From Rhizophagus irregularis (Eukaryota > Glomeromycota > Glomeromycetes > Glomerales > Glomeraceae): a DNA stretch of 64,000 bases. The DNA is taken from the NCBI RefSeq assembly GCF_026210795.1, contig NC_089429.1, forward strand, positions 2,108,001-2,172,000. Direction: 5' to 3'. The notes beneath the pieces are model-generated. The model was not told the DNA's origin, ran no database searches, and saw only the letters and a list, made by a program, of their open reading frames with translations. This document shows positions 1,526-28,105 of the stretch, piece after piece. A program made the position numbers and the translations under genes. Each line of letters begins with the position of its first letter. The first letter of the stretch is position 1.

Positions 1526-1574
1526 TCATGTTAAATATATAAATATATAAATATATATTATATATAAAAATACC

Positions 1575-2784: not shown

Positions 2785-4010
2785 AGGGCTATAAAAAAAA
2801 GAAAGAATGGTTAGTAAACCATTCATAATAATAATAAATAAAAAAAGATTAAAGATTCGTACTTACGAATCTTTGGGTTTTCGTTCTTCGGAAGACCACC
2901 CGAACCTATAAAAAAAAAAGAAAGAATGGTTAGTAAACCATTCGTAATAATAAATAAAAACAAAAATTAAAGATTCGTACTTACGAATCTTTGGGTTTTT
3001 ATTCTTTGGAAGCCCACCTGATCCTAAAAAAAAGAAAAGAATGGTTATTAGTAAACCGTTCATATATCTAAAAAAAACAAAAAAAAAAGAACCAAGATTC
3101 GTACTTACTTACGAATCTTGGTTTCTTGGTTTTCCATTCTTCGGAAGCCCGCCAGATCCTAAAAAAAAAGAAAAGAATGGTTAGAACCGTTCATATATTA
3201 AAAAAAAAAACAAAAAAATTAAACCAAAATTTGTACTTACTTACGAATCTTGGTTTCTTGGTTTTCTTTTCTTCGAAAGTCTGCCAGATCCTAAAAAAAG
3301 AAAGAACGGTTATTAGTAACCGTTCGTAATATTTTTTTTAAAAACAATAAAAAAAAATCCAAGATTCTTACGAATCTTTGGAATTTTCCCATTCTTCGGA
3401 ATACGGAAGCCCACCTGAACCTATAAAAAATAAAAGAACGGTTATTAGTAACTGTTCGTAATATTTTTTTTAAAAAAAATAAAAAAAATCCAAGATTCTT
3501 ACGAATCTTGGAATTTTCCCGTTCTTCAGAATACGGAAGCCCATCCGATCCTAAAAAAAAGAAAAAGAACGGTTATTAGTAACCGTTTATTAATATTTAA
3601 AAAAAAAATCAAAAAAAATAAAACCAAGATTTGTACTTACTTACGAATCTTGGTTTCTTGGTTTTCCTTTCTTCAGAACAAGCAAGCCTACCCGATCCTA
3701 AAAAAAAGAAAAAGAACGGTTATTAGTAACCGTTCATAATATTAAAAAAAAAATAAAAAAAAATAAGATTCGTACGTGAATCTTTGGGTTTTCGTTCTTC
3801 GGAAGCCCTCCCGAACCTATAAAAAAAATACAAGAACGGTTAGTAAACCGTTCGTAATAATAAAAAAATGACAAAAAAAAATTAAAGATTTGTACTTACG
3901 AATCTTTGGGTTTTCCGTTCTTCGGAAGCCCACCCGAACCTAAAAAAGAAAGAACGGTTAGTAAACCGTTCATAACGATAATATTTAAAAAAAAACAAAA
4001 AAAAAAAAAA
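2785..4010 (-). repeat. Tandem array of mini-exon/intron-like units (array 1)
   Basis: About nine to ten units of 115-140 bp. Read on the minus strand, most units contain a T-rich tract ending TTTTTTTAG, a 39-53-nt block beginning GTTCGGGTGGGCTTCCGAAG and ending AAAGATTC, and then a strong splice donor GTAAGTA. The intron-like spacer holds two inverted repeats: GATTCGTA/TACGAATC beside the donor and GAACGGTT-AGTA-AACCGTTC further on. Blocks near 2867-2905, 2983-3021, 3113-3158, 3246-3291, 3372-3420 and 3899-3938 measure 39, 39, 46, 46, 49 and 40 nt, so reading frame is not kept across the array. One unit near 3775 has lost the donor. It may be a repeat-per-exon gene, its decayed remains, or a satellite that mimics one. 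Diverged units continue to about 4870. Confidence 0.65.
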
Positions 4011-4059
4011 ATATTTGATTCGTAATATAATATTTACGAATCTTAAAATACTCTTTCGG

Positions 4060-4625
4060 AAATCCATCTCCTTTCGTTTTACCCTTCCCCTTTCATTTTA
4101 CCCTTTCATTTTACCCTTTCGTTTTATCCTTCCGTTTTACCCTTTCGTTTTACCCTTTCGTTTTCCCCTTTCTTTTCCATTTTCCTTTTCCTTTCGTTTT
4201 ACCCTATCCCTTTCGTTTTTAGCTTCCCTTTCGTTTTTAGCTTCCCTTTCGTTTTTAGCTTCCCCTTTCATTTTTAGCTTCCCCTTTTGTTTTTAGCTTC
4301 CCTTTCGTTTTTAGCTTCCCCTTTCGTTTTTAGCTTCCTCTTTCATTTTTAGCTTACCCTTTCGTTTTTAGCTTACCCTTTCATTTTTAGCTTCCCCTTT
4401 CGTTTTTAGCTTCTCCTTTCGTTTTTAGCTTCTCCTTTCGTTTTTAGCTTCCCCTTTCGTTTTTAGCTTCCCCTTTCATTTTTAGCTTCCCCTTTCATTT
4501 TTAGCTTCCCCTTTCGTTTTTAGCTTCCCCTTTCGTTTTTAGCTTCCCCTTTCATTTTTTCGCTTCCCCTTTCATTTTTCGCTTCCCCTCTCGTTTTCTC
4601 TTCCCCTTTCGTTTTCACTTCCTCT
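4060..4625. repeat. 19-bp pyrimidine-rich tandem repeat
   Basis: About thirty copies of CCCCTTTCGTTTTTAGCTT and close variants (CCCTTTCATTTT and similar at the left edge). The plus strand is almost pure pyrimidine apart from the AG of TTAGC. The ORF at 4015-4296 is a translation of this repeat. Confidence 0.9.
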
Positions 4626-5072
4626 TGAAACCTATAAAAAAACAAGAACGGCTGGGAAACCGTTCTATAATATTAAAAAAAATCCACTATTCGTAATAAT
4701 ACTTATGAATCTCAGTCACGTCTTGGATCTACAAAAGCAAAAAACGAAAATGTTAGTAAAACGTTTCGTTAAAAAACAACAAAATAAAATTTGAAGGTAT
4801 ATATATACCTTCGAAATAGGAGTCCGGCCTTCTAAATGGGCGTCTTGGACCTACAAAAGAAAAAAAACTGAGGGACAAAGGGAAAGGGGAAAGGGGAAAA
4901 GAATAAGAAAAGTAAAGGGACGAAGGGAAGTGAAAGGGGGGAAAGAGGAACGAAGGGAAAGGGGAAGGGGAAGAAAGAAAATTAAAAAAAGTTTAAAAAA
5001 GAATGCAATAAGATGATCCTTTTTTAAACTTTTAATATGCGTAACGCATAATGCGTAACGTTTATTCAACAA
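4626..5072. other. Diverged mini-exon units and a polypurine tract
   Basis: At 4630-4870 two diverged units of array 1 remain. On the minus strand one reads TTTTGTAG, then a 42-nt block starting GTCCAAGACGCCC, then a GTATAT donor-like end inside the palindrome AAGGTATATATATACCTT. From 4865 to 4980 the plus strand is a purine tract rich in GGGAAAGGGG. The minus-strand ORF at 4851-5072 starts with a lysine-rich stretch then a hydrophobic run, but is mostly the purine tract read backwards. Confidence 0.45.
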
Positions 5073-5364
5073 GATTGAATATATGTCTAATCATAGATCA
5101 TTACTAATTGAAGTGGAATTTTTTAATTTTAGTCGAATATAGGCCAAATTGTATTAAGGCCGAATATTCCTTTTTCGACTAGTGTCATCCCTTGATTATT
5201 TTCTATGTACAAATCTGGTTATCAATGCAAATACAATTATGAATCTGATTGTTTATTATTCTGATTGTTTGTTATTAATCTATTTGAATCACTATTTAAA
5301 ATATAATAAATAACATATAATTTTTTTTTCTTTTTTTCTTTGACCTTTGTCGTATAATTTGAAA

Positions 5365-10678: not shown

Positions 10679-11635
10679 ATGGTAAACGCTCAGGAATGGT
10701 TTGATGGAAAATACTCAACTGCTGAATCCAAAAGAGCAGTCGAAAGAATAGGTCCAAAAGAAGAGTTTAATAAAAGAATCGAAGACAATATAATTTCAAT
10801 ATTTGGCGGGGGTAGGCCTTTATCAACTCTTCTTCTCGGTATTGATGATATGAAAAGCAGAACACTCAATGAAAATATTAGTTTAGAAGGTTCTCTAACT
10901 TTAAAAGGATTCCTTAATTTAGAATTATTGGATATCAGTAACAAAAAAATTACTACATTAGACGTATCTGATTGTCCTCAACTCCGTGAATTGGATTGTT
11001 CTAATAATCAACTCACCAATTTGACCATATCTGGTTCAAATAAAATTGAAAAAATTCTTTGTGGTAATAACAGATTATCAAATTTAGATTTCTTAAAAAG
11101 TCAAAATCCTGCCAAATTAATTACCCTTCGCATGGACAACAACAATTTTCCTACTCAAAATTTGAAGTGTTTTACTCCTTTTATTAACTTACGTATATTA
11201 TGCATAAGTAACAATCCTTTTACTGGTTCTTTAAAACCATTAAGAAATTTATCTAGTTTAAAGGAAATAAATATCGCTGATACCAACATTGATGGTGGTT
11301 TAGAGTATTTACCTGATGAATTTTTTAACGTCAATGCCGTTGCTTCTGGCTTTAATTTTGGAAGAGGTCACTTTAATAGAAGACTTTTTTGTACTGGAAA
11401 CTTAGCTAAGCAATTAAGCGATTACAAAATCGAAGATGACTCCTATAGAAATTATGACTGGCAAGCCTGGAAGTTAGATAATCAAGAATTAATTAAAAAA
11501 GCTAGAGAAGAGATCGAAGTTAACGAACTTAACGAAGAATCAATTAAGTTGCAAGAATGGGAATCAATATCCAAAGAAATTAAAGAGTTATATGAACAAC
11601 TCCGATGTAATATTTATCTAAAAACTCATATCTGA
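10679..11635 (+). CDS. Short leucine-rich-repeat protein (318 aa)
   Basis: Open from ATG 10679 to TGA 11633-11635. The N-terminus NAQEWFDGKYS is followed by a 50-residue linker and then by about five or six LRRs of the bacterial/fungal short type, with the pattern L-x-x-L-D-x-S-x-x-x-L (LELLDISNKKITTLDVS, LRELDCSNNQLTNLTIS, ITLRMDNNNF, LRILCISNNPFTG, LKEINIADTNIDGG). After residue about 215 the repeats give way to a segment containing NYDWQAWKLDNQELIKKARE and a charged helix to the end. LRRs usually bind proteins; no partner can be read from the sequence. In my recollection related proteins in these fungi have a longer coiled-coil tail, so this copy may be short at the C-terminus. No intron is needed. 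Confidence 0.8.
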   Translation: MVNAQEWFDGKYSTAESKRAVERIGPKEEFNKRIEDNIISIFGGGRPLSTLLLGIDDMKSRTLNENISLEGSLTLKGFLNLELLDISNKKITTLDVSDCPQLRELDCSNNQLTNLTISGSNKIEKILCGNNRLSNLDFLKSQNPAKLITLRMDNNNFPTQNLKCFTPFINLRILCISNNPFTGSLKPLRNLSSLKEINIADTNIDGGLEYLPDEFFNVNAVASGFNFGRGHFNRRLFCTGNLAKQLSDYKIEDDSYRNYDWQAWKLDNQELIKKAREEIEVNELNEESIKLQEWESISKEIKELYEQLRCNIYLKTHI

Positions 11636-13608: not shown

Positions 13609-14471
13609 TAGGGATTGGAATCGATTCCCATTATTGGAATCGATTTTAAAATTGATTAATCGCGATTAATCGTTTCGCAAATATCGATTTTAAGATTCGA
13701 TTTTCGATTTTTGATAATCGAAACTAATCGAATTTATATTTCACAAAAAATACAAATTACGGTGCAAATTTATAATTATACTTAAAAGATTATTTATAAT
13801 AATAGAATTTTTTTAAAAGTAATATAATTTGAGAATGTCAAATTCACCGATCACACCCACGTTTTTGATTGGTTACGCGATTACGTCATCATCAATAAAT
13901 GTTTATTTGTTTATTATTTCTAGTACTTTCCCAACTTTAAACCCTTCGCTCAGCTGGTATGTTTTTCTTTTTTTTTCTTTTATTGTTTTTATATTTTATT
14001 TCTTGCTAACTTTATTTTATTCTCTTTAAGTTCTTACTCCTTTCAGTCTTTTGCTCTTTGCAATTAAGGTGTGTTTAGTATTACATAGTCACGATTTTTT
14101 GAAGTTTTTGTTTTTTTTTTATTTTGTCTCTTACACTTCGTTTCTTATATTTTGTTCCTTACATTTCCTTTCTAACTTTATTTTGTTTTCTTTTAGGTCC
14201 TTAGTTCTTCCCGGTGTGTTCTTTCTTTTATTTTTTTTTATTATTTTTTTTATTTTGTCTATCATATTTCGTTTATTTTATGGTTTTTATTTGGTCGGTT
14301 GGTTTCCTTCATTTTTTTATTCCCTACTATTTTTTTATCTTTTGTTTCCATTGTTACTTTTATTTCCTTAATTTTTCATTTCTTTTTCACTCCACTTCAT
14401 TTTTTTTCGTTCCTTTTCGCTTGTCCCTCGTTTCTTTCACTCCTTTTCACTCCCCGTGTTTTATATCGCGT

Positions 14472-15120
14472 TGTCACCCACGTCTGCCACCCGTGGATAA
14501 ACACATCTTTCTCATTTAACTTATTTCTCGTTACTTTGCTTGGTTTAGATTTTATTTTTCTTTTAACTTCTCGCTTTCTTTCTCATATATCCATAGTATT
14601 TATTCTCAATACTACCACTCATTCATAATATTCTCACAATATTATGTTGCCTGTAATATTTATTCTTTCAAATATTACCATCTTATTTCTTATAAACTGC
14701 GAGAGTTCTCCTAACTTCTTATATTTCATACAATAAAACGAGAATAACTCCTTTTACTTTTACTTTTCTGGACTTAATAATAATATTAATTAATTCTCAA
14801 GCGTACAATGAGCATATTCAAGATAACTTTTAATAATTAATATTTAATTTATTAAATTTGAGTCAAAACTGACTGCGGAATTCCTAACGAATCCCACCTA
14901 TATTTATACATTTTTAAGAAAACTATTTCTACCACTTCTAACTTTTCTACTAATAAAAATTTAAGAACAATAAGAAAATAAAGATATATTATCATATGAC
15001 TATCTTGTGACTAAACTAAACTAAACTATAAATATTATTTTATCGGTTAATTATTTATCCTTGTTCCATTCGGTCTTTTATTCATCCGCTCACGTGATCA
15101 TCCTGATTTCTCGGGTTACA
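14472..15120 (-). repeat. 3' LTR of the Ty3-type element
   Basis: 649 bp with TG/CA ends, read on the minus strand as TGTAACCCGAGA...GGGTGACA. The copies differ from the 5' LTR at about two visible sites (CATAG versus CGTAG near 14600 and GCGGAATT versus GCGAAATT near 14880). It contains the E-box-like palindrome TCACGTGATCA near its upstream edge. Confidence 0.93.
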
Positions 15121-15137
15121 GCTATCCCCCCCAAGAA
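15121..15137 (-). other. Polypurine tract for plus-strand priming
   Basis: On the minus strand the sequence directly before the 3' LTR is TTCTTGGGGGGGATAGC, followed by the LTR start TGTAAC. A G-run next to the 3' LTR is the expected plus-strand primer site in Ty3/gypsy elements. Confidence 0.75.
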
Positions 15138-15151
15138 AAATTTGAGTCCCA

Positions 15152-16339
15152 TCAAATTCTAATTATAACTTCGAAATTTGACCTGTCAATATATTCCTTC
15201 AATAATTCTCCATTTACTGGCGTTTTCTGTATCCTTCCCTCCATAGTTTTAATTTTATAAGATCCTTTAGAAATTATTTCATGTATATAATACGGTCCTT
15301 TCCATTTTTCTTCTAGTTTTCCAGACCATTGTTTTTCTTTTGCTGCATCATAATATAGCACTTTATCCCCTATTTGAAAATTCTTTTTCATCTTGTATTT
15401 CTTATCATGATATTTCTTCTGTTTTTCTTGAGATTTCTCTATATTTTCTTTAGCTTGACTTCTAATGTTCGGTAGATCTTCCATTAAACTATTAATTCTT
15501 TGTGTTATCGTAACATTTTCATCTTCTAAATTTAATAATGTCTTCATTTCTCTTCCATATATTAGATATCCTGGTTTTAACTTGGTTGAATCATTCTTCT
15601 TTGTTCTATATGCAAATAAAACTCCCGGTATTTTTAAATCCCAATCTTTAATGTTATTCAATTTTGCTAATGATTCACATAATGTTTTGTTGAACCTTTC
15701 TATTAATCCATTCGTCTTCGGGTGATAAGGTGTCGAAAAATTGTGTTTTATCTGAAATTCCTTCATTAATAGTTCTACTAATTTATTATTAAAATGACTT
15801 CCCCTATCACTTAATATCTTCTTTGGACATCCATGTCTACATATTATATCTTCATAAATGAATCTTGCAATTTCCTTAGCATCTGCTGTTTCTAGAGCTC
15901 TAGCTTCTGGCCATTTCGTAAAATAATCCATTGCCGTAACTATGTATCTATTATTTCTTTCTGTTATTGGTAACGGTCCCACAACATCTATTCCAATCTG
16001 ATAAAATGGTTCTTTAACTTTTATTACATTTAATTCGTGTTTTCCAATCGGTTTTCCTCTCCTTTGACAACTATCGCATGATTTAACATATCTTTCCATA
16101 TCTTGTTTCATTCCTTTCCAATAATATTTCTCTCTAATCCTTTCATATGTTGCATCTATTCCAAAATGTCCAGATAGTTCATGGTCGTGTGCAATATACA
16201 TTAATCCTTCGAACTCATATTTTCTTATTACTCTCAGTTCTCTATTATCCTTTATTCTATATAACAAACCATCTTTCATCCTATAGTGTTGTTCATTATC
16301 TACATTTTTAATTATCTCATTATATTTATCTTCTTCCAT
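15152..16339 (-). CDS. Integrase (395 aa) of the Ty3-type element
   Basis: The start ATG at 16339 lies inside the end of the 50-codon ORF. The N-terminal HHCC zinc domain is complete (HDHELSGHFG at 51-60 and C88-x2-C91 in CDSC). The catalytic core has D118 (IGIDVVGPLP), D178 (ILSDRGSHF) and E214 (GLIERFNK), with exactly 35 residues between the second and third acids, as in the DD35E class. The C-terminal part has the GPY/F-like signature EEKWKGPYYIHEII. The protein inserts element DNA into the host genome. No chromodomain is seen after GPY/F, since the frame ends about 30 residues later. All key residues are present. Unlike most Ty3 Pol proteins it is not in one open frame with RT. Confidence 0.95.
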   Translation of the reverse strand: MEEDKYNEIIKNVDNEQHYRMKDGLLYRIKDNRELRVIRKYEFEGLMYIAHDHELSGHFGIDATYERIREKYYWKGMKQDMERYVKSCDSCQRRGKPIGKHELNVIKVKEPFYQIGIDVVGPLPITERNNRYIVTAMDYFTKWPEARALETADAKEIARFIYEDIICRHGCPKKILSDRGSHFNNKLVELLMKEFQIKHNFSTPYHPKTNGLIERFNKTLCESLAKLNNIKDWDLKIPGVLFAYRTKKNDSTKLKPGYLIYGREMKTLLNLEDENVTITQRINSLMEDLPNIRSQAKENIEKSQEKQKKYHDKKYKMKKNFQIGDKVLYYDAAKEKQWSGKLEEKWKGPYYIHEIISKGSYKIKTMEGRIQKTPVNGELLKEYIDRSNFEVIIRI

Positions 16340-16478
16340 TAGCTAGTATTTCTTCTATTTCTTCTTCAAAAGGTAAAATAAACCTAATACTTTTATCTTC
16401 AAATAACACGCAGTGATAATTCGTATTCCTGTGTATGATGTAAATATATATTCCTATTCCAATATTTTCAGTAGTCAT
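16326..16478 (-). CDS. Small 50-codon ORF between RT-kinase and integrase
   Basis: Opens with ATG two bases after the TAA of the RT-kinase ORF (TAA-AA-ATG) and ends 14 nt inside the integrase ORF, in a different frame. It encodes TTENIGIGIYIYIIHRNTNY, then a strand-rich segment ending RFILPFEEEIEEILANGRR. I do not recognise the peptide. The close stop/start arrangement on both sides suggests translational coupling or a small accessory protein. It could equally be a spacer that is open by chance, since 50 codons is short. Confidence 0.45.
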   Translation of the reverse strand: MTTENIGIGIYIYIIHRNTNYHCVLFEDKSIRFILPFEEEIEEILANGRR

Positions 16479-16480
16479 TT

Positions 16481-18802
16481 TTATTTTTCCAATAGCTTTT
16501 CAACTCGTTTATATACTTTTTTCCAACTTTTGTCATCGTTTTTAATTCTAATCCTCTTATATTTTCCTTTATTCTTATAAATATTCTGATGTTCTTTAAA
16601 CATTTTCACCATGTCCATATATTCCTCTTCGTTCAACGTTTCATATGATGTTTTATGTCCTTCATTACTTTTCTTAGTTTCTCTTCCAATATAATTATTC
16701 CAACATTCTTTATTTTCTAAGAAAATTATTACCGCATTATCTATAATGTCTTTATATTTAAATATCTCTTTCTCCATTTTATGATTCCCATATGGAGTAA
16801 TATATCCTCTGTCAAAACTTTTGGTCTTTTGATAAAAGTATTCACAATATGGTGACTTATCCAGTATTATAATGTCTTCATCTGTAAATTCAACTATTCT
16901 CCTATTGATTTCTTCTACAACTTGTTTTCTAAATAACCATTCATATTCTTTTGAAGGTTCCTCAAATCTCTTATCATCATTTCTTCTTCTTTTAAACTTA
17001 TTAAATATTATTTTTAAATCATCCTTTTCTTTTAATCGTTTAATTATATTTTCCACTATGGTGGATTTCCCTACACCATCAACCCCATCAACAATAATAA
17101 TCTGTGGTTTACTCTTCCTTCCTAATTTCTTTAATAATTCTTTTTCTGTCTTTTCTTCTAAGTTCAGTAATATTGCTTCTTTATCATTAAAATATTTCAT
17201 ATCATCCCATTTTCCCTTAAATCTTCTAGCGTCGAACCATTCATTTCCTGATCTAACATATCTCAGCTTTTTCTCTTTATTATGTTCCATTTTCATTATT
17301 TCTTGACTTAAGCCTCCAGGGTCCCTTTTTATAACTTTCTCTTCAAATTCTAGTCTTGATAACGCATCTGCATTCTTATTTTCTTTACCACTTCTATGTA
17401 TTACTTCAAAATCATATTGTTGTAACTCCATTACCCATCTTGCTCTTCTTCCTGTAGGTACTTTAGCATTCATTAATCCTTTTAACGCAGCATGATCCGT
17501 TATAACCGTAAATTTTCTTCCTGCTAAGAACTTATGGAAATACTTGATCCCCCAGAATATCGCTAAACATTCTAATTCTGTTATTGCATAATTCTTTTCT
17601 GCTCCCACTAAACTTCTACTAGCATAGGCGATAACAAATTCTTTATTTTCTTCATTTTTCTGAGATAATACTGCTCCTAACCCTTCTCCTGATGCGTCTG
17701 TAATCAATATAAACTCCTTTTCGAAATTAGGGTGATCTAATACTGGTTTCTCCATTAATCTTATTTTTAATTCTTCAAATGCTTCCTGCTGTTTCTCTGT
17801 CCATTCAAATGGTACATCCTTTTTAACTAAGTGATATAAAGGCTTTGCTATTTTCGCAAAATTCTTTATAAATCTTCTATAATATGAGCACAATCCTAAA
17901 AATGATCTCACTTGTGTAACAGTTTCTGGTATCTTTATTTCTTTAATCTTCTCCACTTTCTTTGCATCTGGTTTCAAACCATCTCTTCCAACTATATGTC
18001 CTAAAAATTCTATATTTCGTTCACCAAACTTACATTTCTTCAATTTCACAATCAAGTTGTTTTTCTTTAATTTGTTCAACACTTTATCGATATGTTCCAC
18101 ATGTTCTTCAAAATTTTTTGAATAAATCATTATATCATCTAGATATACTATTACAAATTCTCCAATATATTCTTTTAATATCTCATCCATTATCCTCTGA
18201 AATGTTCCTGGTGCATTCTTTAAACCAAATGGCATAACATTATATTCATATAATCCTTGTGAACATATAAATGCTGTCTTTTCTTTATCTTCTTCTACCA
18301 TTTCTACTTGATGATACCCTGCCGCTAGATCCAAACTCGTAAACCATCTCGCTGTTCTATATTTTTCTAATAATTCGTCTATTCTTGGTAATGGGTATGC
18401 ATCCGACTTAGTTATATTATTCAATTTCCTATAATCAATGCAAAATCTATAATTTCCTGTTTTCTTTCCTGCTAGTGTTACTGGAGACGCCCATGGACTC
18501 CATGACTTTCTAATTTTCCCCATTTTTAATAACTGTTCAACTTCTTTCTTTATAAACTTTCCCTTTTCCTCGGTCTCTTTATACCTCTTCTGTGCTATTG
18601 GTTCTTGACCTTCTTTAATTTCTATTTTATGTCTAACAGTGTCTACCTTTCCTAATTTTTCTCCATCGTATTCAAATATCTCTTCATAACTTTTGATTAG
18701 CTTTATTATACCATCCTTTCTTTTACCTGTTACTTCTCCCAAATTTATCTTTTTATCGAACTTTTCCCATTTAGTTTCATTTTTATCATTTTCATTTATC
18801 AT
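16481..18802 (-). CDS. Reverse transcriptase-RNase H with C-terminal P-loop nucleotide-kinase-like domain (773 aa)
   Basis: Starts at ATG 18802. Residues about 55-330 are a Ty3-type RT: SPWASPVTLAGKK, FCIDYRKLN, FTSLDLAAGYHQ, MPFGLKNAPGTFQ and the catalytic YLDD near residue 220. Residues about 330-490 are the connection and RNase H (LITDASGEGLGAVL, ITELECLAIFWGI, ITDHAALKGL, NADALSR). After a 60-residue linker comes a separate alpha/beta domain, residues about 560-773. It has strand IIIVDG, Walker A GVDGVGKST (about 572-580), a second strand with IIILDKSPYCEYFYQ in the place of the DR[YS] substrate motif of thymidylate and deoxynucleoside kinases, a strand VIIFLE, and an arginine/lysine-containing lid-like segment (GRETKKSNEG). 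This suggests a dNTP-supply activity fused to RT, but catalysis is untested and the usual DR is DK. Integrase, normally downstream in the same frame, is encoded separately. Confidence 0.92.
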   Translation of the reverse strand: MINENDKNETKWEKFDKKINLGEVTGKRKDGIIKLIKSYEEIFEYDGEKLGKVDTVRHKIEIKEGQEPIAQKRYKETEEKGKFIKKEVEQLLKMGKIRKSWSPWASPVTLAGKKTGNYRFCIDYRKLNNITKSDAYPLPRIDELLEKYRTARWFTSLDLAAGYHQVEMVEEDKEKTAFICSQGLYEYNVMPFGLKNAPGTFQRIMDEILKEYIGEFVIVYLDDIMIYSKNFEEHVEHIDKVLNKLKKNNLIVKLKKCKFGERNIEFLGHIVGRDGLKPDAKKVEKIKEIKIPETVTQVRSFLGLCSYYRRFIKNFAKIAKPLYHLVKKDVPFEWTEKQQEAFEELKIRLMEKPVLDHPNFEKEFILITDASGEGLGAVLSQKNEENKEFVIAYASRSLVGAEKNYAITELECLAIFWGIKYFHKFLAGRKFTVITDHAALKGLMNAKVPTGRRARWVMELQQYDFEVIHRSGKENKNADALSRLEFEEKVIKRDPGGLSQEIMKMEHNKEKKLRYVRSGNEWFDARRFKGKWDDMKYFNDKEAILLNLEEKTEKELLKKLGRKSKPQIIIVDGVDGVGKSTIVENIIKRLKEKDDLKIIFNKFKRRRNDDKRFEEPSKEYEWLFRKQVVEEINRRIVEFTDEDIIILDKSPYCEYFYQKTKSFDRGYITPYGNHKMEKEIFKYKDIIDNAVIIFLENKECWNNYIGRETKKSNEGHKTSYETLNEEEYMDMVKMFKEHQNIYKNKGKYKRIRIKNDDKSWKKVYKRVEKLLEK

Positions 18803-18886
18803 TTTAAAATTTATTTATTATTTTATTTCTTATTATTATTTCAACAATTTTACATTTTAGGACAATTTTAACCCTTTTTATATAAT

Positions 18887-19525
18887 TTAATCCTCATTTT
18901 CACTAGATATTTCACTATCATCAGACGAGCTTTCTTCACTGGAACTTTCACTATCTTCTTGAGACTCATTTTCTTTTACTACTTCCTTTTCTTTTATTGC
19001 TTCTTTTACTGTATATAACTTCTTTCCTTCTTCTTGTTCATAATCAGATTCTCCTGATTCACTTTCATAGTCGGATTCTTCTGACTCTTCCACTTGTTTA
19101 ATATACCACACTGGTATGTCTATTATTTCTTCATCATTTTCTAATTCCAATATCTTTTCTTTATAGTTGATATTTGCATTCCATTTATCCAATAAATCAT
19201 TTCCTATAATCATTTCTTTTTGCTTTGAATCTATTACATCTAATGTTACTGGTAATACTAATTCTTTATAAACTTTTATTTCTGTATTCACTTTTCCTAA
19301 TGAAGCAATCTTTCCTCCATCTGCTAATGTACACGTAATATTACTTTTTCCTTTTATTGGTATATTTAACTCTTTTCTTAATTTCTCTGTTATTACACTT
19401 ATTGCTGCTCCTGAATCTATTACAACTTCGATTTCCTTATCATTTATTATAAACTGTGTTTTCATTGCCGTTGTAACTTCTTTTTCTCCACTTATTTCAG
19501 TCTTTTTCACCTCCGAGTGTAGTCA
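18887..19525 (-). CDS. Retropepsin-type protease, reached from Gag through UGA-CUA
   Basis: The open frame follows the Gag stop in the same frame: GAG TGA CTA CAC TCG GAG, then the protease. Counting from the GTG at 19510, 207 codons remain. The active site DSGAA is at residues 32-36, after the strand IEVVI; the second half has TLDVIDSKQKEMIIGNDLL, matching the IGxDLL flap-to-end signature of retroviral aspartic proteases. It should mature the Gag and Pol products as a homodimer. The C-terminal 80 residues are an acidic serine-rich tail (SEESDYESES, SSSEESSSDD). The first ATG lies at codon 16, close to the domain edge, so independent initiation there is possible. Readthrough of the UGA is favoured by the CUA that follows. 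Stops after 18887 separate it from RT. Confidence 0.88.
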
Positions 19526-22500
19526 CTCTGTTTTATCTCCTTTTCTTATCATTTTCTTTATCATTCTTCCTTGTTGTTCCACAATATTAAGTAGATTTCC
19601 ATAATCTACTGGATCTTTTGATTTAACTCCTATAATTTTATCTTCTCTTGGTCTACGTTTTCCCCCTGCTTCTTTCCATCTATTTATTCCTTCCATTGTG
19701 TCATAATATTCTCCTCTCTTTTTACTCCATTTATATCTTTTTGGGATATTCGTATTGTCTGGTCCTATTGGTCTATTATACATTGGTTGCTCATCCTCCA
19801 CATATTCTTCCATCGGAACTTCTCTTCTATTTCTATATTTATATTCTTCTTTCCCTCTTTCCTCAATCTCTTTGTCTAAATTTGGCTTTCCAAAATTTTT
19901 CCATCCTTGTTTAGGATTTATTCTATTACTTCTCCTTCTTTCTTGTACTGGGTTATCTTTTTCATACAAATCACGATTGTAATTATACAATTGTGGATCA
20001 TCATATTCATTATTTTCATAGTCGTAATCATCATCTGATTCTTCATTTTCGTAGTCATAATCTTCTTCATGGTCTTCTATATCCATTAAATTAACTCTTC
20101 TCTCATTTCTTCTGATATTATTTCCTAATGGACATCTAGTCGCAAAATGACCTCTTCTATTACACCTAAAACAAGTTATTTCATCATAATTAATCGGTGC
20201 TCCATTATTTCTCCTCTGATTCAATTGGTTTCTATTCCCATTATTATTCAACTCCCTTTCCATATTTCGTACTTGTTTTTCCAATTTGGCAATTCTCATT
20301 TTCTCTAATTTTTCCACTAAATCATCCTCATAATCTTCCTTTAACGGTTTGTTAAACTTATTTTCTTGTTCATTTCTTTTATCACTGTTTTGTCTAATAT
20401 CTTGAATATTATTATTCTGAATATTATTCTGATTCAACAAACTTTGATTCATCATACTTTGTATCATCATTTGATTTCCTGTCTCTATAATTTTAGCTCT
20501 TTCAACAGCTGCATCCAACGTCGCTGGTGCTGTTTCCATTACTCTTGATATCATAACTGGATTCAGTCCCTGAATAAAATAGTTAATTTTATACATTTCT
20601 CCTAAATCATTAACTCCTGGTGCTACTTTTCTTATTAACTTTCTGAATCTGCTTGCATATGCTCCTACTTTCTCATTCATTTCTTGTTTAATCGTTTGTA
20701 ACTCTCTAATCCATTGATTCTTTCTAACATCGCTTGCATAATGTTCCTTCAGTATTTTAGTAAAATCATTATTCCCATGGTTATGACCATTGTCCTCCCA
20801 TCTTTGTATATCTCCTTGTTTGCCTTCATACCAATCAGCTGCTTCTCCTCGCATGCATGCTGCTGCTTTTCTTATTTTATCTATTTGATTAGCTCCTTCT
20901 TGATAACCATTTGCGTTCCAAACAACCTCAAAATCTCTAATCCACTCATATGGATCTTGATCTCCTCCATAATATAATGGTAAATCTCCTACTTTCGCTG
21001 CTCTATTCACTGGTCCTGTCAAATTTCCAATTCTTGTTTCAACTTGATTAATTCTTCCAAATATCGTATTTGCTGGTGGAACTAAAGCATTCCAATTATT
21101 TCCTATATCATGTCCTAACATTATATTTCCAAATACTCTCAAATCTTCTCTGATGTGATTTCTTTCTGCCATATTCAATAATATATTCTCTTGAAATAAA
21201 TCCTGTAAATTATAATCAGATAGTTCACTTTCTGTATCAGAATTTTCAATATCAGAATCCCTAATATTCAACGAATTATTCGAATCTGAATTTTGACTTA
21301 AGTCAAAACCTCCTGTATTTATAACATTTTCATTATTATTTTCAACTTCATTTTCATTGAGGTCTTTAGAATTTCCTTCCCAAATCTCGTATTCTTCTGG
21401 ATCTAATATTTCTCCAATCTTTTCTGAATTATCTGTATCATCATTTTCTTCTTCAACTTCCTCTTCACTTTCTTCAATTTCAAATTTCTTTAAGTATTCA
21501 TCTAATATTCTCTTTATTTCTTTTTCCGATTCATTTTTATATTCTTGAAATTTTCTTATAAAGTCTGCACTTAATATATCAACATCTCTATATCCCATAC
21601 TCATTAATCTTAATAATTCTCCACCGGAAACTTCAATTTCTAAAACTTTGATTAGATTTTTTAACTGTTCTAACCTTTTCTCTATTTCTGTTTCATCATC
21701 CAATTCATTCTCATCTTTTACATTTTCTGGTCCTTTTTCATAACAATTTTTACATATCTTTTCTATAAATTCTTTATTGTATTCTACCGCTTCTATTGCT
21801 TCTTTCTTTAATATTATTTTATTGCACATTGGGCATTCTATCGTATACATATAATGCCATATTCTTAACTCTTCTTCTATTCTTTCGTCATCTAATTCTT
21901 CAATAGTTTTGTAAAAACTCATAAATTCTTTAGTCTTCATTATTTCATATTCCACTCTGAAATTTATTATTCGCCTTATCTCTTCAGTATCAATTTCATA
22001 ACCATTTTCTAACCAATAATTTCTATATATTCTCTCTATATGTTCATCTCCTTCATTCGAACTTGATTCTCCCAAATCATCTGAATTTTCCAGTTCTCCT
22101 ACATCACTTTGTTCTTCAACAAAACCTTTTGCTTCTACAATTTTCTTTATTATCTTATCTGTTATGTCATCATCTATCCATGGTTTCGGGTATTTATTTC
22201 CATCCCACCATTGATATGTTATACTTTTCTGAAACTTTCTGACTTTCTCTCTATTCTCTTCTTCTACTATATTTTCTTCTAAATGCAATATTTCCTTGAA
22301 ATATCTCATTGTGCTATATCCTTTGTTTTTAATGGTTATTGGTTCTGTTTTTTCTAACCATTCCTCAAATTTTGCGAATCTCATATCTAATTCATCATCT
22401 TCTATAATATATCTATATGTTAACAATTCCCTATTTCCTAATAAATTCTCTTCTGTTTGTTCCTCTAATATAAGTTCATTATCTTCATTCAGTATGTAAT

Positions 22501-22918
22501 GTTCACATATTACTTTTATTACTGATATAATTCCTATTTTTCTGTAGTCCGGTTTATTTCTATACCTTATTGATCTTACGACTACATCCAACAGTTTTTC
22601 TCCTTCTTTTCTCATTCTCTCAAATTCTTTATTTCTTTTCTTTTTACTAGATGGATAATTTTCTTCCCCATCCTTTCTTGTTAGTATTATGTATTCCATT
22701 AATTTCATATACGTATTTCTGTTATAACTCATTGCTTCTAATATTACTTTTTGAAAAATTTTCCAAAATCTTTTAAACCAATCTTCTATCTTTATTTCAT
22801 CAATACTATAACATTTCAGGCATGAAGGATCTACTTGATATTCCTTCCTCGATTCATTATGTTTTTCTATTTCGTGTCTATTTTTGATCTCTTCTAATTC
22901 ATCGTATATTTCAGACAT
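19523..22918 (-). CDS. Very large Gag polyprotein (1131 aa)
   Basis: ATG at 22918, TGA at 19525-19523. Residues 1-580 are a long, charged region not seen in ordinary Gag; it includes CLKC near residue 33 and a paired CPMC...CKNC knuckle (about 360-392) that could bind zinc. Residues 440-580 are acidic. The usual Gag begins near an internal Met at residue 583 (MAERNHIRED). The capsid-like core is about 640-800 (LPLYYGGDQDPYEW, GEAADWYEGK, VGAYASRFRKLI, YFIQGLNP). A CCHC knuckle, C916-x2-C919-x4-H924-x4-C929 (CFRCNRRGHFATRC), precedes an acidic YENEE stretch and a basic C-terminus. It should form the particle and bind element RNA. The N-terminal half may be an acquired domain or a fused accessory ORF. 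Confidence 0.92.
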   Translation of the reverse strand: MSEIYDELEEIKNRHEIEKHNESRKEYQVDPSCLKCYSIDEIKIEDWFKRFWKIFQKVILEAMSYNRNTYMKLMEYIILTRKDGEENYPSSKKKRNKEFERMRKEGEKLLDVVVRSIRYRNKPDYRKIGIISVIKVICEHYILNEDNELILEEQTEENLLGNRELLTYRYIIEDDELDMRFAKFEEWLEKTEPITIKNKGYSTMRYFKEILHLEENIVEEENREKVRKFQKSITYQWWDGNKYPKPWIDDDITDKIIKKIVEAKGFVEEQSDVGELENSDDLGESSSNEGDEHIERIYRNYWLENGYEIDTEEIRRIINFRVEYEIMKTKEFMSFYKTIEELDDERIEEELRIWHYMYTIECPMCNKIILKKEAIEAVEYNKEFIEKICKNCYEKGPENVKDENELDDETEIEKRLEQLKNLIKVLEIEVSGGELLRLMSMGYRDVDILSADFIRKFQEYKNESEKEIKRILDEYLKKFEIEESEEEVEEENDDTDNSEKIGEILDPEEYEIWEGNSKDLNENEVENNNENVINTGGFDLSQNSDSNNSLNIRDSDIENSDTESELSDYNLQDLFQENILLNMAERNHIREDLRVFGNIMLGHDIGNNWNALVPPANTIFGRINQVETRIGNLTGPVNRAAKVGDLPLYYGGDQDPYEWIRDFEVVWNANGYQEGANQIDKIRKAAACMRGEAADWYEGKQGDIQRWEDNGHNHGNNDFTKILKEHYASDVRKNQWIRELQTIKQEMNEKVGAYASRFRKLIRKVAPGVNDLGEMYKINYFIQGLNPVMISRVMETAPATLDAAVERAKIIETGNQMMIQSMMNQSLLNQNNIQNNNIQDIRQNSDKRNEQENKFNKPLKEDYEDDLVEKLEKMRIAKLEKQVRNMERELNNNGNRNQLNQRRNNGAPINYDEITCFRCNRRGHFATRCPLGNNIRRNERRVNLMDIEDHEEDYDYENEESDDDYDYENNEYDDPQLYNYNRDLYEKDNPVQERRRSNRINPKQGWKNFGKPNLDKEIEERGKEEYKYRNRREVPMEEYVEDEQPMYNRPIGPDNTNIPKRYKWSKKRGEYYDTMEGINRWKEAGGKRRPREDKIIGVKSKDPVDYGNLLNIVEQQGRMIKKMIRKGDKTE

Positions 22919-23339
22919 CTTGATTTATTTTATTTACCTATTTACTTGCAAAATGATTTCATTTCATATTTCCCGTCTATTTATATTTTTATTCATATAG
23001 TATTTATTCGTTTATCATTTCAATCTTTATTTCTTTTATATTTTCATGTTTACAACTTTCTACTACATTTCTTTATTATATTTTATATCACATAGTATTC
23101 TATTACTTATAACTTGATATTCTTCCAACTTCATTAATTCCTAATTAGTTTAACGTCTTTCTGGACAACTATTTGTCTCTAAATTCTTATTATTTACATT
23201 TTTCCTGTATTTCCATCTTAACCGCTTGATTTCTTCACGCTTATTATTCTTCTTATGATATTCTTTTATTCCACCCATTATCTTCTAACGTCTTTTTGTA
23301 TATTTATTTCATCCTTTAATATTCATCTTATTCTTCAAT

Positions 23340-24022
23340 TCCTATATTCTGTCTGTTCATAAATTTTCTGATTATTCCTGTATGCGGCTATTTTACATTC
23401 TCCCATTCGCAATATATTCATATTTTTGTGTTCACATCTTTCTTCATATTCATTAAGGTATCCCATTCCTTTTCGAAAGTATTCTTTACATAACGTTTCT
23501 ATTTTATTTCTTAAACTTTCTTCGCTTTCTTCCCTAACTTCAAAATAATTAATTTCTTGTAATGTTACATTCTCTATTTTTTTTTTTTTTTTTTTTGCAA
23601 TATTTACATTTTACTTCGCTGTCTATTCTAATAAAACCTTTTTCGTTTATATTTTCAAATATCATTGTTTTCATTTCCTGTATTTTACTCAGAATTTCTC
23701 ATTTATTATTATTTTATTTTGTCATTATCCATTTCCTTCTACTTTTATAATAATTGATTACTTAGCTTCTATTGTCACTCGAATATCTATCAATTATTCT
23801 AAATTTTAAATTCAACCATTTGATCTCATTTTTATCCCAATCTGTAATACACATTCCTTCATTTTCAAACCATTATAACGCATTTCCTAACAAATGTGTC
23901 TTTGCAATCTTAAATATTCTTCTATCGTCTTTAATTCCTATCTTTGACAGATATTTTTCTACTTGATTTGTCCATTCTTTTGGATTTTCTCCTATTACAC
24001 CATAAAATATTGGTATTTCCAT
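23340..24022 (-). pseudogene. Second, decayed gag-like piece plus a cysteine-containing ORF
   Basis: From the ATG at 24022 the frame reads MEIPIFYGVIGENPKEWTNQ, then KIAKTHLLGNAL, a TAA at 23875-23873, and WFENEG...LKFRIIDRY, followed by more stops. This matches the capsid motif of the main Gag (LYYGGDQDPYEW ... GEAADWYEG) and so is a second gag core. Further on, MKTMIFENINEKGFIRIDSE leads to CKYC, a run of 20 A (T on the plus strand at 23577-23596), and after a one-base shift a second open stretch (LQEINYFEVREESEESLRNK, then EERCEHKN) to about 23340. No function can be assigned. The homopolymer may be a slippage site or a mutation. Confidence 0.5.
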
Positions 24023-24168
24023 TTTAATCTTTTGTATTACTTCTTAAAATATATATACTTCACATTCTTTTCACGGTACAAATTTTGCCCTTTTTATAAC
24101 TTTATTTTAAACATTTCAAGGTTCTCAGACTTTAATCTCTATATTTTGACCTTTCATTCCTCTATTTC

Positions 24169-25080
24169 TTATCCTCTTATAAGATCTTCCGCTATTTCTG
24201 TTATTTCTTTCTTAGTACAACTATCTACTGATGTAATATCACAATTACTTTCGAATACTCTTTTCTTTCCTATCTTATTAACTAATAAACAAACTTTTTC
24301 TGCTTTTTCCATCATTCTTTTTAATCCTTTTCTTGTTCTTACTACATCTGTTTCCAACATTTCCTTATATATCTTTTCTCGTTCCTCTTTATCTGTTCTC
24401 CTTTTTCTATTTTTCCCTTTTCGCCTATTAATTTCTTGTTCTAATCTTTCTTCAAACCTTTTTCCTAGATAATAATGTATTTCCAATAACATCTGATTAT
24501 TCCTTCTCATTTTATGACATAATTGTAATAACGATAGTCCTCCATTCTCCTTTTCTAACATTTCTTCGTCAATATCTTCCTTCTTATGTTTTAATCTAAT
24601 CATTAAAACTTGGTAATTTTCTGATCTAACTATTTCTTCATTTTCTTCACTATCATCAGTTCCATTTTTCTCACTACTATTATCTTCTTCCTTTTCTCTA
24701 ACCTTATCATTCTTGTCATCTATTTCCATTAATTCTGATCTTTCTTCATCAGCTATTCCATCATTATTTATTTCATCTACTACTATATTATCATTATCAT
24801 TCTCATCATTACTTTTGTTATTCTCATCTTTTTCTATATTAAATTCTGACTCATCATTAACATTCCTATTTCCTGAACTATTATCACTTTCTTCTATCAT
24901 ATCTTCATCAAGTTCAATTTTTTCTTCGTTAAATATTCTTTCAGTAACTATCTCGCATGTGACAATCCAATTCTTTAGTCTCATGTCATTTTCATCATAA
25001 AATTCCACTTCAATACAATCATTTAGTTTTTCTTCAACTTTTCTCAATTCTCCTTTTGATATTTTAACTTTTAATTTCAT
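24169..25080 (-). CDS. Accessory ORF upstream of gag (303 aa)
   Basis: Open from ATG 25080 in the 5' part of the retrotransposon. Three regions: residues 1-55 with a strand/helix mix (MKLKVKISKGELRKVEEKLN), residues 55-150 a highly acidic low-complexity stretch rich in D, E, N and S, and residues 155-303 helical and basic (RLEQEINRRKGKNRKRRTDK, then LETDVVRTRKGLKRMMEKAE). The basic part could bind nucleic acid or act as a nuclear localisation signal; that is a composition-based guess. I recognise no family. Its place just after the leader means it would be the first ORF on the genomic RNA, so Gag would need reinitiation, splicing or leaky scanning. Confidence 0.6.
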   Translation of the reverse strand: MKLKVKISKGELRKVEEKLNDCIEVEFYDENDMRLKNWIVTCEIVTERIFNEEKIELDEDMIEESDNSSGNRNVNDESEFNIEKDENNKSNDENDNDNIVVDEINNDGIADEERSELMEIDDKNDKVREKEEDNSSEKNGTDDSEENEEIVRSENYQVLMIRLKHKKEDIDEEMLEKENGGLSLLQLCHKMRRNNQMLLEIHYYLGKRFEERLEQEINRRKGKNRKRRTDKEEREKIYKEMLETDVVRTRKGLKRMMEKAEKVCLLVNKIGKKRVFESNCDITSVDSCTKKEITEIAEDLIRG

Positions 25081-26625
25081 GATTTATTATTTCTTATTTA
25101 TTTATTATTTTATTAGTCAGTCGTCCCTGCCCAGGGGCAACTATATATATACTCCTAATTTGATATTTTCCTATTATTCTATTGGTTATTCATTCTTATT
25201 GTTCCATCAACCGTTCTCAGTATTTCATTAAATTCTTTATTTCTTTTATAATTCTTTATTTCTCAACTTCAATCTCCTTTTCTCTAATTATTTCTTTCGT
25301 TCTTTAATTCCTTTCTACTTTCTTTCTTAACTTTTCTCTTACTGTGCCCTATACCATTCACATGATCTGTATCACTCACGTGACTTGTATAACATTCCAA
25401 TTCTTTTACTGTGCCTTGTACTACTCACATGATCTGTATTACTCACGTGACTTGCCGCAGTATAATCTCATTTTATTCACTCACATTTGTAATCGAACTG
25501 AAGATCATAAGCCCAATTGTTCAAACACTTACCATTATACCAACAACATATAGTTGTTACATTTAAACCTTGGACTCATATTTAATTTTTATAACTCCAT
25601 TCTTACAACATCAAATATTCAACAATACTATTTCTTTTTATTTCATACTTGATACAATTCTTTTATTATACTTCTCATAATCATTAACATCATTCTTTCT
25701 TTTATTATAGCTGGATAGCCACGGATTTTTAAGCGATCAACTTACTAAAATTTCTGTTGACTAACGCCCCTGGTGACACAACTATTTTTATTCTCTTACT
25801 TGACCAGCAAGTTTCTTCAAAAATAAATTAATATGAGGGTTTAACACCGCTTTACCCACAACGTACAATAATAATAATGGGGGTTTTACAGCTTTACCCG
25901 CAACTTAAAATAACAACAATGGAGGGTTTATTACAGTTTAACCCACAACTTGCAATCTAGAGGGTTTATTACAGATTTACCCACAACTTACATCTTATAA
26001 TCTCATAGTGTTTTTCAAGGTTCTCACTTAACCCTTGGGTTTATAGTTTACCCGTAACTTTTTGCATTATTAACTTTTATTAGATTTACTTTCTTACCGT
26101 GAAATCTCAATACGGTCTTATTTTCTTTTATAGTCGATTATCGTGACTAACTTAACTCCAATAATTCTTATAGAATTATCTCCTTTTATTTCCAATAACC
26201 TATACTAGGCTTATCTCTACCTTCATATCGAAGTATGATAGTTTCTAGGTTTGTCATTAACAACTTTTCATTTCTTATTTATCAGGCTTATACATCGTCT
26301 AGTGTATTTCTTTCATTTCATGTTAGTCCTTTTTCATACTAACATACACTTCTTGTTAGTCCTTTTTCATACTAACATATACTTCTTTCAACTTCTTATA
26401 ATAAACTTCATAATTTCCTGATAAATCTCCTAATCACAAGCAATACACGCTTTGATTATCCTTCATTACTTGTACTTCTTTTATTTCTCATTGTACACTT
26501 AATAATTTTTTCTTTTTATACTCAAGTCCAGATCCTCCAGGAATACCATACAGGTACCTAACTATATGAAGATAGTCAGAATGATCATATTTCATTTCTT
26601 TTAATCTTTATTGATCATTTCCTTT
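25081..26625 (-). other. 5' leader of the retrotransposon with internal repeats
   Basis: 1.5 kb without a convincing ORF. Three repeated structures stand out. A block containing CTCACATGATCTGTATTACT, then CACGTGACTTG, occurs twice at 25340-25455. Four imperfect 38-45-bp direct repeats of the type AGGGTTTATTACAGNTTTACCCACAACTT occupy 25836-26058. A hairpin TGTTAGT-CCTTTTTCAT-ACTAACA is duplicated at 26312-26382. Such structured leaders may serve RNA packaging or internal translation start; that is inference. Confidence 0.6.
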
Positions 26626-26643
26626 CTCGAGAGCATTGCACCA
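26626..26643 (-). other. Primer-binding site
   Basis: On the minus strand the 5' LTR ends GGGTGACA, followed by a 3-nt spacer ATT and then TGGTGCAATGCTCTCGAG. The TGG start is complementary to the CCA end of a tRNA and lies where minus-strand priming is expected. I could not identify the tRNA. Confidence 0.65.
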
Positions 26644-26646
26644 AAT

Positions 26647-27295
26647 TGTCACCCACGTCTGCCACCCGTGGATAAACACATCTTTCTCATTTAACTTATT
26701 TCTCGTTACTTTGCTTGGTTTAGATTTTATTTTTCTTTTAACTTCTCGCTTTCTTTCTCATATATCCGTAGTATTTATTCTCAATACTACCACTCATTCA
26801 TAATATTCTCACAATATTATGTTGCCTGTAATATTTATTCTTTCAAATATTACCATCTTATTTCTTATAAACTGCGAGAGTTCTCCTAACTTCTTATATT
26901 TCATACAATAAAACGAGAATAACTCCTTTTACTTTTACTTTTCTGGACTTAATAATAATATTAATTAATTCTCAAGCGTACAATGAGCATATTCAAGATA
27001 ACTTTTAATAATTAATATTTAATTTATTAAATTTGAGTCAAAACTGACTGCGAAATTCCTAACGAATCCCACCTATATTTATACATTTTTAAGAAAACTA
27101 TTTCTACCACTTCTAACTTTTCTACTAATAAAAATTTAAGAACAATAAGAAAATAAAGATATATTATCATATGACTATCTTGTGACTAAACTAAACTAAA
27201 CTATAAATATTATTTTATCGGTTAATTATTTATCCTTGTTCCATTCGGTCTTTTATTCATCCGCTCACGTGATCATCCTGATTTCTCGGGTTACA
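26647..27295 (-). repeat. 5' LTR of the Ty3-type element
   Basis: 649 bp, same length as the 3' LTR and nearly identical. It should contain the promoter and transcription start on the minus strand. It is flanked outside by GCGT (27296-27299). Confidence 0.93.
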
Positions 27296-28105
27296 GCGTA
27301 TGCAAATGATTAGAAATTGACAGAGAAGTTGGCAAATTTTTTTCTGTCTTTAAGTGGGCTGAAAATATGTTATAAAGGCCTTCATTTTCTTTTGTTCCTT
27401 TCGCTTCCCTTCGTTTTTTTCATTCCTTTTCACTCCTTCATTTTTTTCGTTCCTTTTTATCCCCTTCGTTTTTTTCATCCCTTTTTCACCTCTCTTTTGC
27501 TTCTTTCATTTTTTTTACTCCACCTTTGTTTCTTTCATTACTTTTTATTCCTCTTCATTTATTTTGTTCTTCCCTTCACTTCTTTTGTTGATCTTCATTC
27601 ATTATTTTTTTCATTATATTTTGTTTCTTACTCTTCTTTTTGTTATTGCACATTCTCTTCGTTTTATTTTCATTATTTCTGTTATTTCCATAAATAAATA
27701 AATAAATAAAAATTGTTAATATTTATATTTTTAATCAATAAAACGTATCTTTAATTAATAAATTATTATTATTATCATTATAAACGTGTAAGTATTTAGT
27801 TTGCAAATAAAAATTTCATTACATTTTAAAAGTTACTTTAAAAAAAATTTTTGATATTTTGATTACAAATGATGTAATACATATTATTCTAACAAAGAGT
27901 TCGTCTGCTTCATCACGTAATGACGTAATACTTCCTTGTTTAATACTGCAAAATGCTAACTTGTGTCATTAATAAACATTTATTAACGATACTGCGCCAC
28001 AATAAATAGATTCGATTTTTATTCGATAATCGATTTAAAATCGATTCTTGTCGATTTTCGATAGATACGATTTTAATCGAATCTTTTCCAATCCCTAGCT
28101 CAATG

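Follow-up and report, generated by a model that had tools for sequence, protein, structure and literature searches.

The stretch of DNA analysed here, 64,000 nucleotides of the genome of the arbuscular mycorrhizal fungus Rhizophagus irregularis (the window; G000:C1:2108001-2172000), contains a complete-looking Ty3-type long terminal repeat (LTR) retrotransposon of 12.8 kb on the minus strand. A stop-free frame of 773 amino acids within its pol region, read from 18802 to 16481, encodes reverse transcriptase (RT), RNase H, a spacer and a P-loop kinase-like domain of about 220 residues. The Pfam families RVT_1 (5e-43) and RT_RNaseH (2.7e-37) match within the first 463 residues of this frame, and beyond residue 542 or so several P-loop families match, including Thymidylate_kin at 22.5 bits (cut-off 27). 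The fusion of a nucleotide-kinase-like domain to RT-RNase H in a Ty3-type element, which had been proposed from the letters of this DNA (the original prediction), is thereby confirmed as a genuine observation, and the motifs then named (GVDGVGKST, LDKSPYCEYFYQ, VIIFLE and a basic stretch) are all found in the domain. Its start lies at about 17155, slightly upstream of the 17130 given earlier. Its base use had been called like that of the rest of pol; it is similar, but slightly A+T-richer (G+C 0.265, third-position G+C 0.23; RT, RNase H and integrase have 0.29-0.34).

Structure of the element

The 773-amino-acid frame is divided as follows.

17783..18802, minus strand: reverse transcriptase portion (Pfam and open reading frame)
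17303..17782, minus strand: RNase H portion (Pfam and open reading frame)
17156..17302, minus strand: spacer between RNase H and kinase, in frame; its end aligns with the database protein P0155 between the NUDIX match and the P-loop of that protein
16481..17155, minus strand: P-loop kinase-like domain, most likely of the deoxynucleoside kinase/thymidylate kinase superfamily, with the stop codon TAA at 16481-16483
17060..17086, minus strand: Walker A motif, GVDGVGKST
16982..17002, minus strand: N-x2-KRRR (Asn and first Arg in 52 of 52 aligned rows, the remaining basic residues in 49-51)
16829..16861, minus strand: DKSPYCEYFYQ, occupying the place of the DR/ERS motif

The other features of the element are these.

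14472..27295, minus strand: whole retrotransposon (LTR pair by blastn; gag, protease, RT, RNase H and integrase by Pfam)
26647..27295, minus strand: 5' LTR, with ends TGTAACCCGAG...TGGGTGACA (blastn against the 3' LTR)
14472..15120, minus strand: 3' LTR (blastn pair)
14468..14471, with its copy at 27296-27299, no strand: target-site duplication GCGT, 4 bp (flanks read by eye)
26635..26643, minus strand: primer-binding-site-like sequence TGGTGCAAT, separated from the 5' LTR by 3 nt (by eye)
24169..25080, minus strand: open frame of 303 amino acids in the 3.7-kb leader upstream of gag (open reading frame list)
19523..22918, minus strand: gag, with Ty3_capsid and Retrotrans_gag (Pfam; zinc knuckle slightly under cut-off)
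18887..19510, minus strand: aspartic protease (Pfam)
16326..16478, minus strand: open frame of 50 amino acids from the kinase stop to integrase, also present in a second copy, L037, with three changes
15152..16339, minus strand: integrase frame, with H2C2 and rve (Pfam)
15121..15135, minus strand: polypurine-tract-like, G-rich purine run CTTGGGGGGGATAGC before the 3' LTR

The Pfam domain order gag, protease, RT, RNase H, integrase is that of a Ty3-type element, with the kinase between RNase H and integrase; no dUTPase domain is among the Pfam families shown for the element. The LTRs align by blastn over 652 bp at 99.69% identity, with TG...CA ends, and TGGTGCAAT, a candidate primer-binding site, resembles the complement of a tRNA 3' CCA end. 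A Pfam search of the 303-amino-acid leader frame at E values up to 1 gave no match. In both the window and L037 the 50-amino-acid frame has its ATG two bases past the kinase TAA, and its end overlaps the ATG of integrase, so that termination-reinitiation through this frame may be one route to integrase synthesis. Near the element the window also contains frames with a TLDc domain and leucine-rich repeats, at 47681-48760 (minus strand) and 10679-11632 (plus strand).

Copies, conservation and selection

The fusion is not confined to the window. The genome comprises 146.7 Mb in 32 contigs, and a protein search of it matched the kinase domain at least 151 times; proteins with the domain are also found in other Rhizophagus species and in Glomus, as the original prediction had suggested should be looked for. 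Among the 150 kinase rows listed (150 of 182 candidates were scored), 133 have no internal stop and 129 are at least 200 amino acids long. With RT as query, 119 of 328 candidates were scored and 120 rows listed, each at least 63% identical; in 117 of them a listed kinase lies no more than 3 kb downstream, the other three being at C25:3505530, C13:673851 and C4:2355525. Conversely, for 30 of the 150 listed kinase rows the RT listing contains nothing in the 4 kb upstream; some of these are broken copies, and for others the RT may fall outside the best 120 RT rows. The association does not extend to all Ty3 elements of the genome. Among the best 150 rows of the RNase H family (150 of 264 candidates scored) a listed kinase lies within 3 kb in 86 and is lacking in 64, including all of the top 61 by score; thus, the kinase marks a group of related Ty3 elements.

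The kinase domain is under purifying selection, similar to RT and integrase. The ratio of nonsynonymous to synonymous substitution (dN/dS; NG86 method) is 0.04-0.22 for the kinase in 13 of 14 copy pairs, the remaining pair being undefined because it has no synonymous change, and 0-0.35 for RT, RNase H and integrase across the same pairs; at the larger distances these ratios are only rough, because synonymous sites are near saturation (proportion of synonymous differences up to 0.69). We also aligned 52 rows, of which 51 come from genomic loci (42 distinct places, four with a stop) and one is the window copy, itself one of those places. The Walker A Lys, Asn52, Arg56, Asp99-Lys100-Ser101-Pro102-Tyr103, Tyr108-Gln109, Arg116 and Arg158-Glu159 are present in all 52 rows, and Gly29 (the last Gly of Walker A), Arg58, Phe75 and Arg76 in 51. 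The polar letters of the putative active site are invariant among copies down to 55% identity.

Two unusual copies were also seen. L003 (G000:C6:4452986-4456141) is a broken kinase copy with a different N-terminal extension, which resembles the stand-alone metagenome kinases P0012 and P0083, and no RT match was found within 1.5 kb upstream of it. In the rearranged copy L046 (positions 888-5336; G000:C15:4389500-4397000) one frame of 951 amino acids without an RT match joins gag, the last part of RNase H and the kinase.

Fusion partners and exchange between lineages

Mapping of the window and 20 longer loci by tblastn gave the order RNase H, kinase, integrase everywhere but at L043, which has no integrase match in the stretch examined. 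Mapping of eight loci frame by frame showed that the fusion to RT, as originally predicted, is the arrangement at five of them (window, L037, L038, L044 and L045) but that in one lineage (L049, L050 and L053) the kinase instead shares its frame with integrase. In lineages A and B (window, L037, L038) RT, RNase H, spacer and kinase form one frame (777-779 amino acids in this map) and integrase follows in a later frame, and in lineage C (L044, L045) the kinase stands immediately behind RNase H in a frame of 706 amino acids. In lineage D the RT-RNase H frame ends after 493 amino acids, and kinase and integrase together make up a frame of 615 (L049), 600 (L050) or, where it is cut by a stop, 468 amino acids (L053); at L049 these frames share 28 nt, and a Met directly precedes the kinase. 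Both kinds of linkage recur among database proteins: P0115 of R. irregularis is a kinase-integrase, and P0117 of R. clarus has RNase H, kinase and integrase in a single frame. The fusion partner thus differs among lineages, and it is the position of the kinase, behind RNase H and ahead of integrase, that is constant.

The domain also has a history of its own. Between lineages B (L038) and C (L044) the proportion of nonsynonymous differences is 0.08 in the kinase and 0.21-0.24 in RT, RNase H and integrase. Accordingly, B groups with A/A' in the trees of RT plus RNase H (19 rows; support 100/99) and of integrase (17 rows; 97/97), whereas in the kinase tree (21 rows) it groups with C (100/99). 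Approximately unbiased (AU) tests rejected monophyly of B and C for RT plus RNase H (p-AU 0.0003) and for integrase (0.001), and monophyly of A, A' and B for the kinase (0.004), with log-likelihood gaps of 99, 34 and 17 units, respectively; these p-values are weakened by the fact that the groups were named after the distances had been seen. The conflict between the trees indicates that the kinase has been exchanged between element lineages as a module.

Class of the kinase

The domain is most likely a member of the deoxynucleoside kinase (dNK)/thymidylate kinase superfamily that forms a family of its own, nearer to these enzymes than to adenylate, cytidylate, guanylate and uridine kinases in most comparisons. 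To this extent the identity proposed earlier holds; the window domain passes the cut-off of neither family, and its letters at catalytic positions differ from those typical of them. Firstly, the PHROG thymidylate kinase model phrog_761 matches all of 16 copies (best 1.4e-15), the window copy at 2.1e-12 over residues 8-221. Secondly, Pfam Thymidylate_kin and AAA_14 both match all 16 at E values up to 0.01 (best for Thymidylate_kin, 1e-5), and the thymidylate kinase model TIGR00041 does so at up to 0.1; the Thymidylate_kin cut-off is passed by a fragmentary kinase copy in the genome (27.7) and by the kinase-integrase P0115 (30.2). Thirdly, the domain shares with thymidylate kinases (PF02223, TIGR00041, phrog_761) the P-loop GxxxxGK[ST] and, by eye, a motif at the DR-AYQ place in which Tyr-Gln is kept. 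Finally, a profile of the 16 copies scored 41.7 bits against the dNK of the host (best of 200 shuffles of that protein, 6.5), 8.3-19.5 bits against eight thymidylate-kinase-like proteins (three annotated, five named by eye) and 0.6-6.5 bits against Adk, Cmk, Gmk and Udk of E. coli. In hhalign comparisons the host dNK gave 96.3% over 170 columns, which makes it the closest full-length profile match; seven thymidylate-kinase-like proteins gave 73.6-94.8% over 25-116 columns, and the four other E. coli kinases 17.9-69.4%; E. coli Tdk gave 0.1% and no listed profile match.

Several results count against reading the domain as a deoxynucleotide kinase. Phrog_761 matches in all 14 control genomes and so marks the superfamily, not the substrate. 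The Pfam search that the original prediction had called for did return Thymidylate_kin, but at 22.8 bits the isolated window domain falls short of the 27 required, AAA_14 and NB-ARC do equally well, and the sole cut-off passed is that of cobW (21.4 against 20.7, residues 19-68). Relatives also exceed the cut-offs of AAA_28, KTI12 or KAP_NTPase, and AAA_28, which matches seven of the 16 copies, has a better best value (3.2e-7) than Thymidylate_kin. Among NCBIfam models, PRK08233 ('hypothetical protein'; 16 of 16, best 4.2e-9) beats dTMP kinase (16 of 16, best 5.3e-7), and the models for FtsY, adenylate kinase and guanylate kinase match all 16 copies too. In a sequence search of the PDB the P-loops of FtsY came top, with yeast thymidylate kinase at an E value of 0.015. 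In the profile comparison E. coli Tmk, at 8.3 bits, is barely above the uridine kinase (6.5), the dNK of phage SP-15 reaches only 2.2 bits (hhalign 24%), and shared composition may account for part of the host dNK score, in which there are 13 bits of bias. Moreover, in all 52 rows DK stands where thymidylate kinases have the Arg of DR[YHFS], and Asn occupies what is presumably the aligned place of the catalytic Glu that follows strand 2 in dNKs; the REP motif of thymidylate kinases is absent. As for a generic P-loop protein of the AAA, STAND, NB-ARC or CobW kind, the matches to such families extend no further than its first half (residues 2-115), against residues 8-221 for phrog_761; this is an argument and not a proof, on which we set that candidate aside. 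We also rejected a known defence protein, as the PADLOC matches are weak and restricted to the P-loop half.

The most serious alternative is that the domain is a deoxynucleoside kinase, which would act on the nucleoside (salvage) instead of the monophosphate and serve the same role in the element. We consider this unlikely, though clearly ahead of the other alternatives. The full-length match to the host dNK described above speaks for it, as do five relatives of the NUDIX-kinase type (see below), which match Pfam dNK (PF01712) over almost the entire domain at 21-25.2 bits, the resemblance of DKSPY[CS]E to the dNK motif ERSxYSD, and the absence of TK-family matches from the genome. For the window domain itself PF01712 lies outside the best 25 of the 29 families listed and below its cut-off of 27 bits, and no retroelement kinase is among the genome matches to PF01712. 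The low score of the phage SP-15 enzyme and the fact that the host already carries a dNK argue against salvage. The invariant Asn in place of the catalytic Glu of dNKs and the basic residues KRRR behind it would better fit a substrate that bears a phosphate, and make a monophosphate the likelier choice.

The same Asn and KRRR run could also bind nucleic acid, which leads to a second alternative: a polynucleotide or RNA/DNA end kinase, acting on 5' ends of the tRNA primer, RNA or cDNA at reverse transcription or integration. This is improbable. In its favour are weak matches of PHROG polynucleotide kinase models to one of the 16 rows (0.014) and to the distant relative P0097 (0.0047). These fall far behind the 1.4e-15 of the thymidylate kinase model, and the distant relatives are fused to NUDIX domains, which mostly act on nucleotides.

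Relatives and origin

Searches of a database of 5.8 billion proteins gave 106, 37 and 39 hits, the first search having scored the best 8000 candidates by shared words. As far as names were printed, the named hits belong to R. irregularis (most of the nearest ones), R. clarus, R. diaphanus (partial) and Glomus cerebriforme only; most hits are nameless, and several are annotated as thymidylate kinase by their source database. Besides P0088 and P0097, the third search returned 25 further distant proteins (P0144-P0168), some of them short fragments. These metagenome kinases form clusters of up to 71 member sequences. A precomputed NUDIX domain is present in 12 of the 27, with scores of 33-38 bits in those examined; P0153 has no NUDIX match. 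The NUDIX-kinases P0088, P0144-P0147, P0154 and P0155 belong to the same kinase family as the element domain and have the common invariant residues, but carry an N-terminal NUDIX domain where the element has RT-RNase H. Identity between the kinases of the genome and P0147 or P0155 is 29-43%, and seven residues are invariant across 43 rows that include the NUDIX-kinases P0088 and P0097. In a further kinase tree the NUDIX-kinases lie on one side of a branch (83/87, not starred), with long branches there and a very long dNK outgroup. The alignment of P0155 with the element frame starts at its residue 114, just behind its NUDIX match (residues 9-103), which suggests that the spacer of the element may descend from the linker of a NUDIX-kinase.

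With respect to origin, the original prediction named host and large DNA virus as possible sources; the distant relatives now found include the NUDIX-kinase fusions from metagenomes. Neither the element kinase nor P0088 had a tblastn match in 50,697 phage records, and P0025, searched against phages at E values up to 10, gave 25 records, with E values of 0.6 or worse in the best 20 of them. In viral contigs the queries A1, P0088, P0097 and A5 found no match, and A3 found ten loci that by eye are ordinary thymidylate-kinase-like or other P-loop proteins; two loci in a collection of genome contigs are likewise thymidylate-kinase-like by eye. When the NUDIX-kinases were searched against the R. irregularis genome, the rows obtained lie, by eye, at places of retroelement kinases, and none covers more than about 10 residues of the NUDIX match. 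The host dNK had no match in plasmids.

The original prediction also envisaged a host in which thymidylate is scarce. This is not supported: thymidylate synthase, dUTPase, dNK and thymidylate kinase each have matches in the genome, so that the pathway is not missing, although pools may be low in non-replicating hyphae. The dUTPase family has two genome matches at a single place, and no repeated dUTPase-bearing elements were seen; the TK family has no match in the genome. The host dNK gene (L055; G000:C28:1224005-1224616, with the family match at C28:1224011) is one open frame of 335 amino acids, with 110 bits to Pfam dNK, and is the sole match of the genome search with PF01712. Host thymidylate kinase matches are at C13:3242213, taken for exons, and C24:3288271; the latter (L001, positions 1501-1959; G000:C24:3288271-3288729) is a thymidylate-kinase-like frame with the degenerate Walker A GCEDTNTT. 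A recent capture of host thymidylate kinase was rejected, as both places are absent among the listed matches to the element kinase and the C24 frame scores at most 1.0 bit.

Proposed function

Retroelements are generally considered to take their deoxynucleoside triphosphates (dNTPs) from the cell; of their accessory enzymes, dUTPase is the one exception known. That the kinase-like domain is intact in many copies suggests that the element helps to make its own DNA building blocks, and we put the probability that Ty3-type elements of Rhizophagus and Glomus encode their own P-loop deoxynucleotide kinase in pol, and that it feeds reverse transcription, at about 55%. The kinase would be made as part of pol and packaged in the particle, where the protease perhaps cuts it free. 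Its substrate would be a deoxynucleoside monophosphate, dTMP or another pyrimidine being the likeliest, and together with the nucleoside-diphosphate kinase of the host the enzyme would raise the dNTP pool for reverse transcription while the host cell is not replicating its DNA. A more specific version of this proposal is that the domain represents a new family of deoxynucleotide kinases linked to RT or integrase, a plug-in module, exchanged between lineages, that supplies dNTP precursors in the particle and permits movement in non-replicating hyphae, and that it may have arisen from a NUDIX-kinase in which pol took the place of the NUDIX half. This version is plausible but falls short of even odds.

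It might be argued that the domain is catalytically dead and that pol retains it as a spacer, as a tether or for dimerisation. On the one hand, it deviates from both known families at catalytic positions, and the last Gly of Walker A is missing in one row from this genome and in P0097. On the other hand, the Walker A Lys is kept in every aligned row and that Gly in all but one, the invariance of the polar active-site letters persists at 55% identity, and the switching of link partners between lineages would be odd for a plain tether; we therefore regard a dead domain as improbable too. Mobile elements sometimes pick up host sequence by chance, but a functionless passenger or an assembly artefact is refuted for practical purposes by the number of genome matches, the low dN/dS, and the occurrence in several lineages, in other species and in both fusion types.

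The proposed role would parallel that of dUTPase in some retroviruses and fungal Ty3 elements. According to the extracts of the papers considered here and below, non-primate lentiviruses have a dUTPase between RNase H and integrase that is important in non-dividing cells (PMC4531489), the position of dUTPase varies in fungal Ty3 elements (PosPlaTy3), apparently through independent acquisitions (PMC2864245), and the rotifer elements Juno, Vesta and TelKA have it between protease and RT (PMC5408684). Such elements resemble the one described here in having an enzyme of dNTP metabolism inside pol, the lentiviral slot even being the same, and differ from it in that our element has a P-loop kinase-like domain and no dUTPase. 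Orchid Gypsy elements have captured another cellular-type enzyme, an AlkB-type demethylase that acts on RNA (PMC9289625, extracts); there it occupies a separate frame, whereas the kinase lies inside the pol frame. In literature searches, with subscription papers mostly outside their scope, we found among the best 2-20 papers of each no title or abstract reporting a nucleotide kinase in an LTR retrotransposon and no paper combining such an element with thymidylate kinase. Within the extracts considered, two papers on R. irregularis elements mention gene families of protein kinases and not this domain (PMC8647823, PMC11075540), and the main text of a survey of fungal LTR elements mentions no kinase, dUTPase or Glomeromycota (PMC3248453). 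The fusion is real, selected and exchanged, and the kinase would be a new accessory enzyme, carried by an element of known type.

If the proposed function is correct, a retroelement would raise its own supply of substrate through a kinase fused to RT or integrase. This would offer a testable case for dNTP supply as a limit on retrotransposition where, as in arbuscular mycorrhizal fungi, the host is coenocytic and replicates slowly. Through its NUDIX-kinase relatives the domain also draws attention to an uncharacterised family of nucleotide enzymes.

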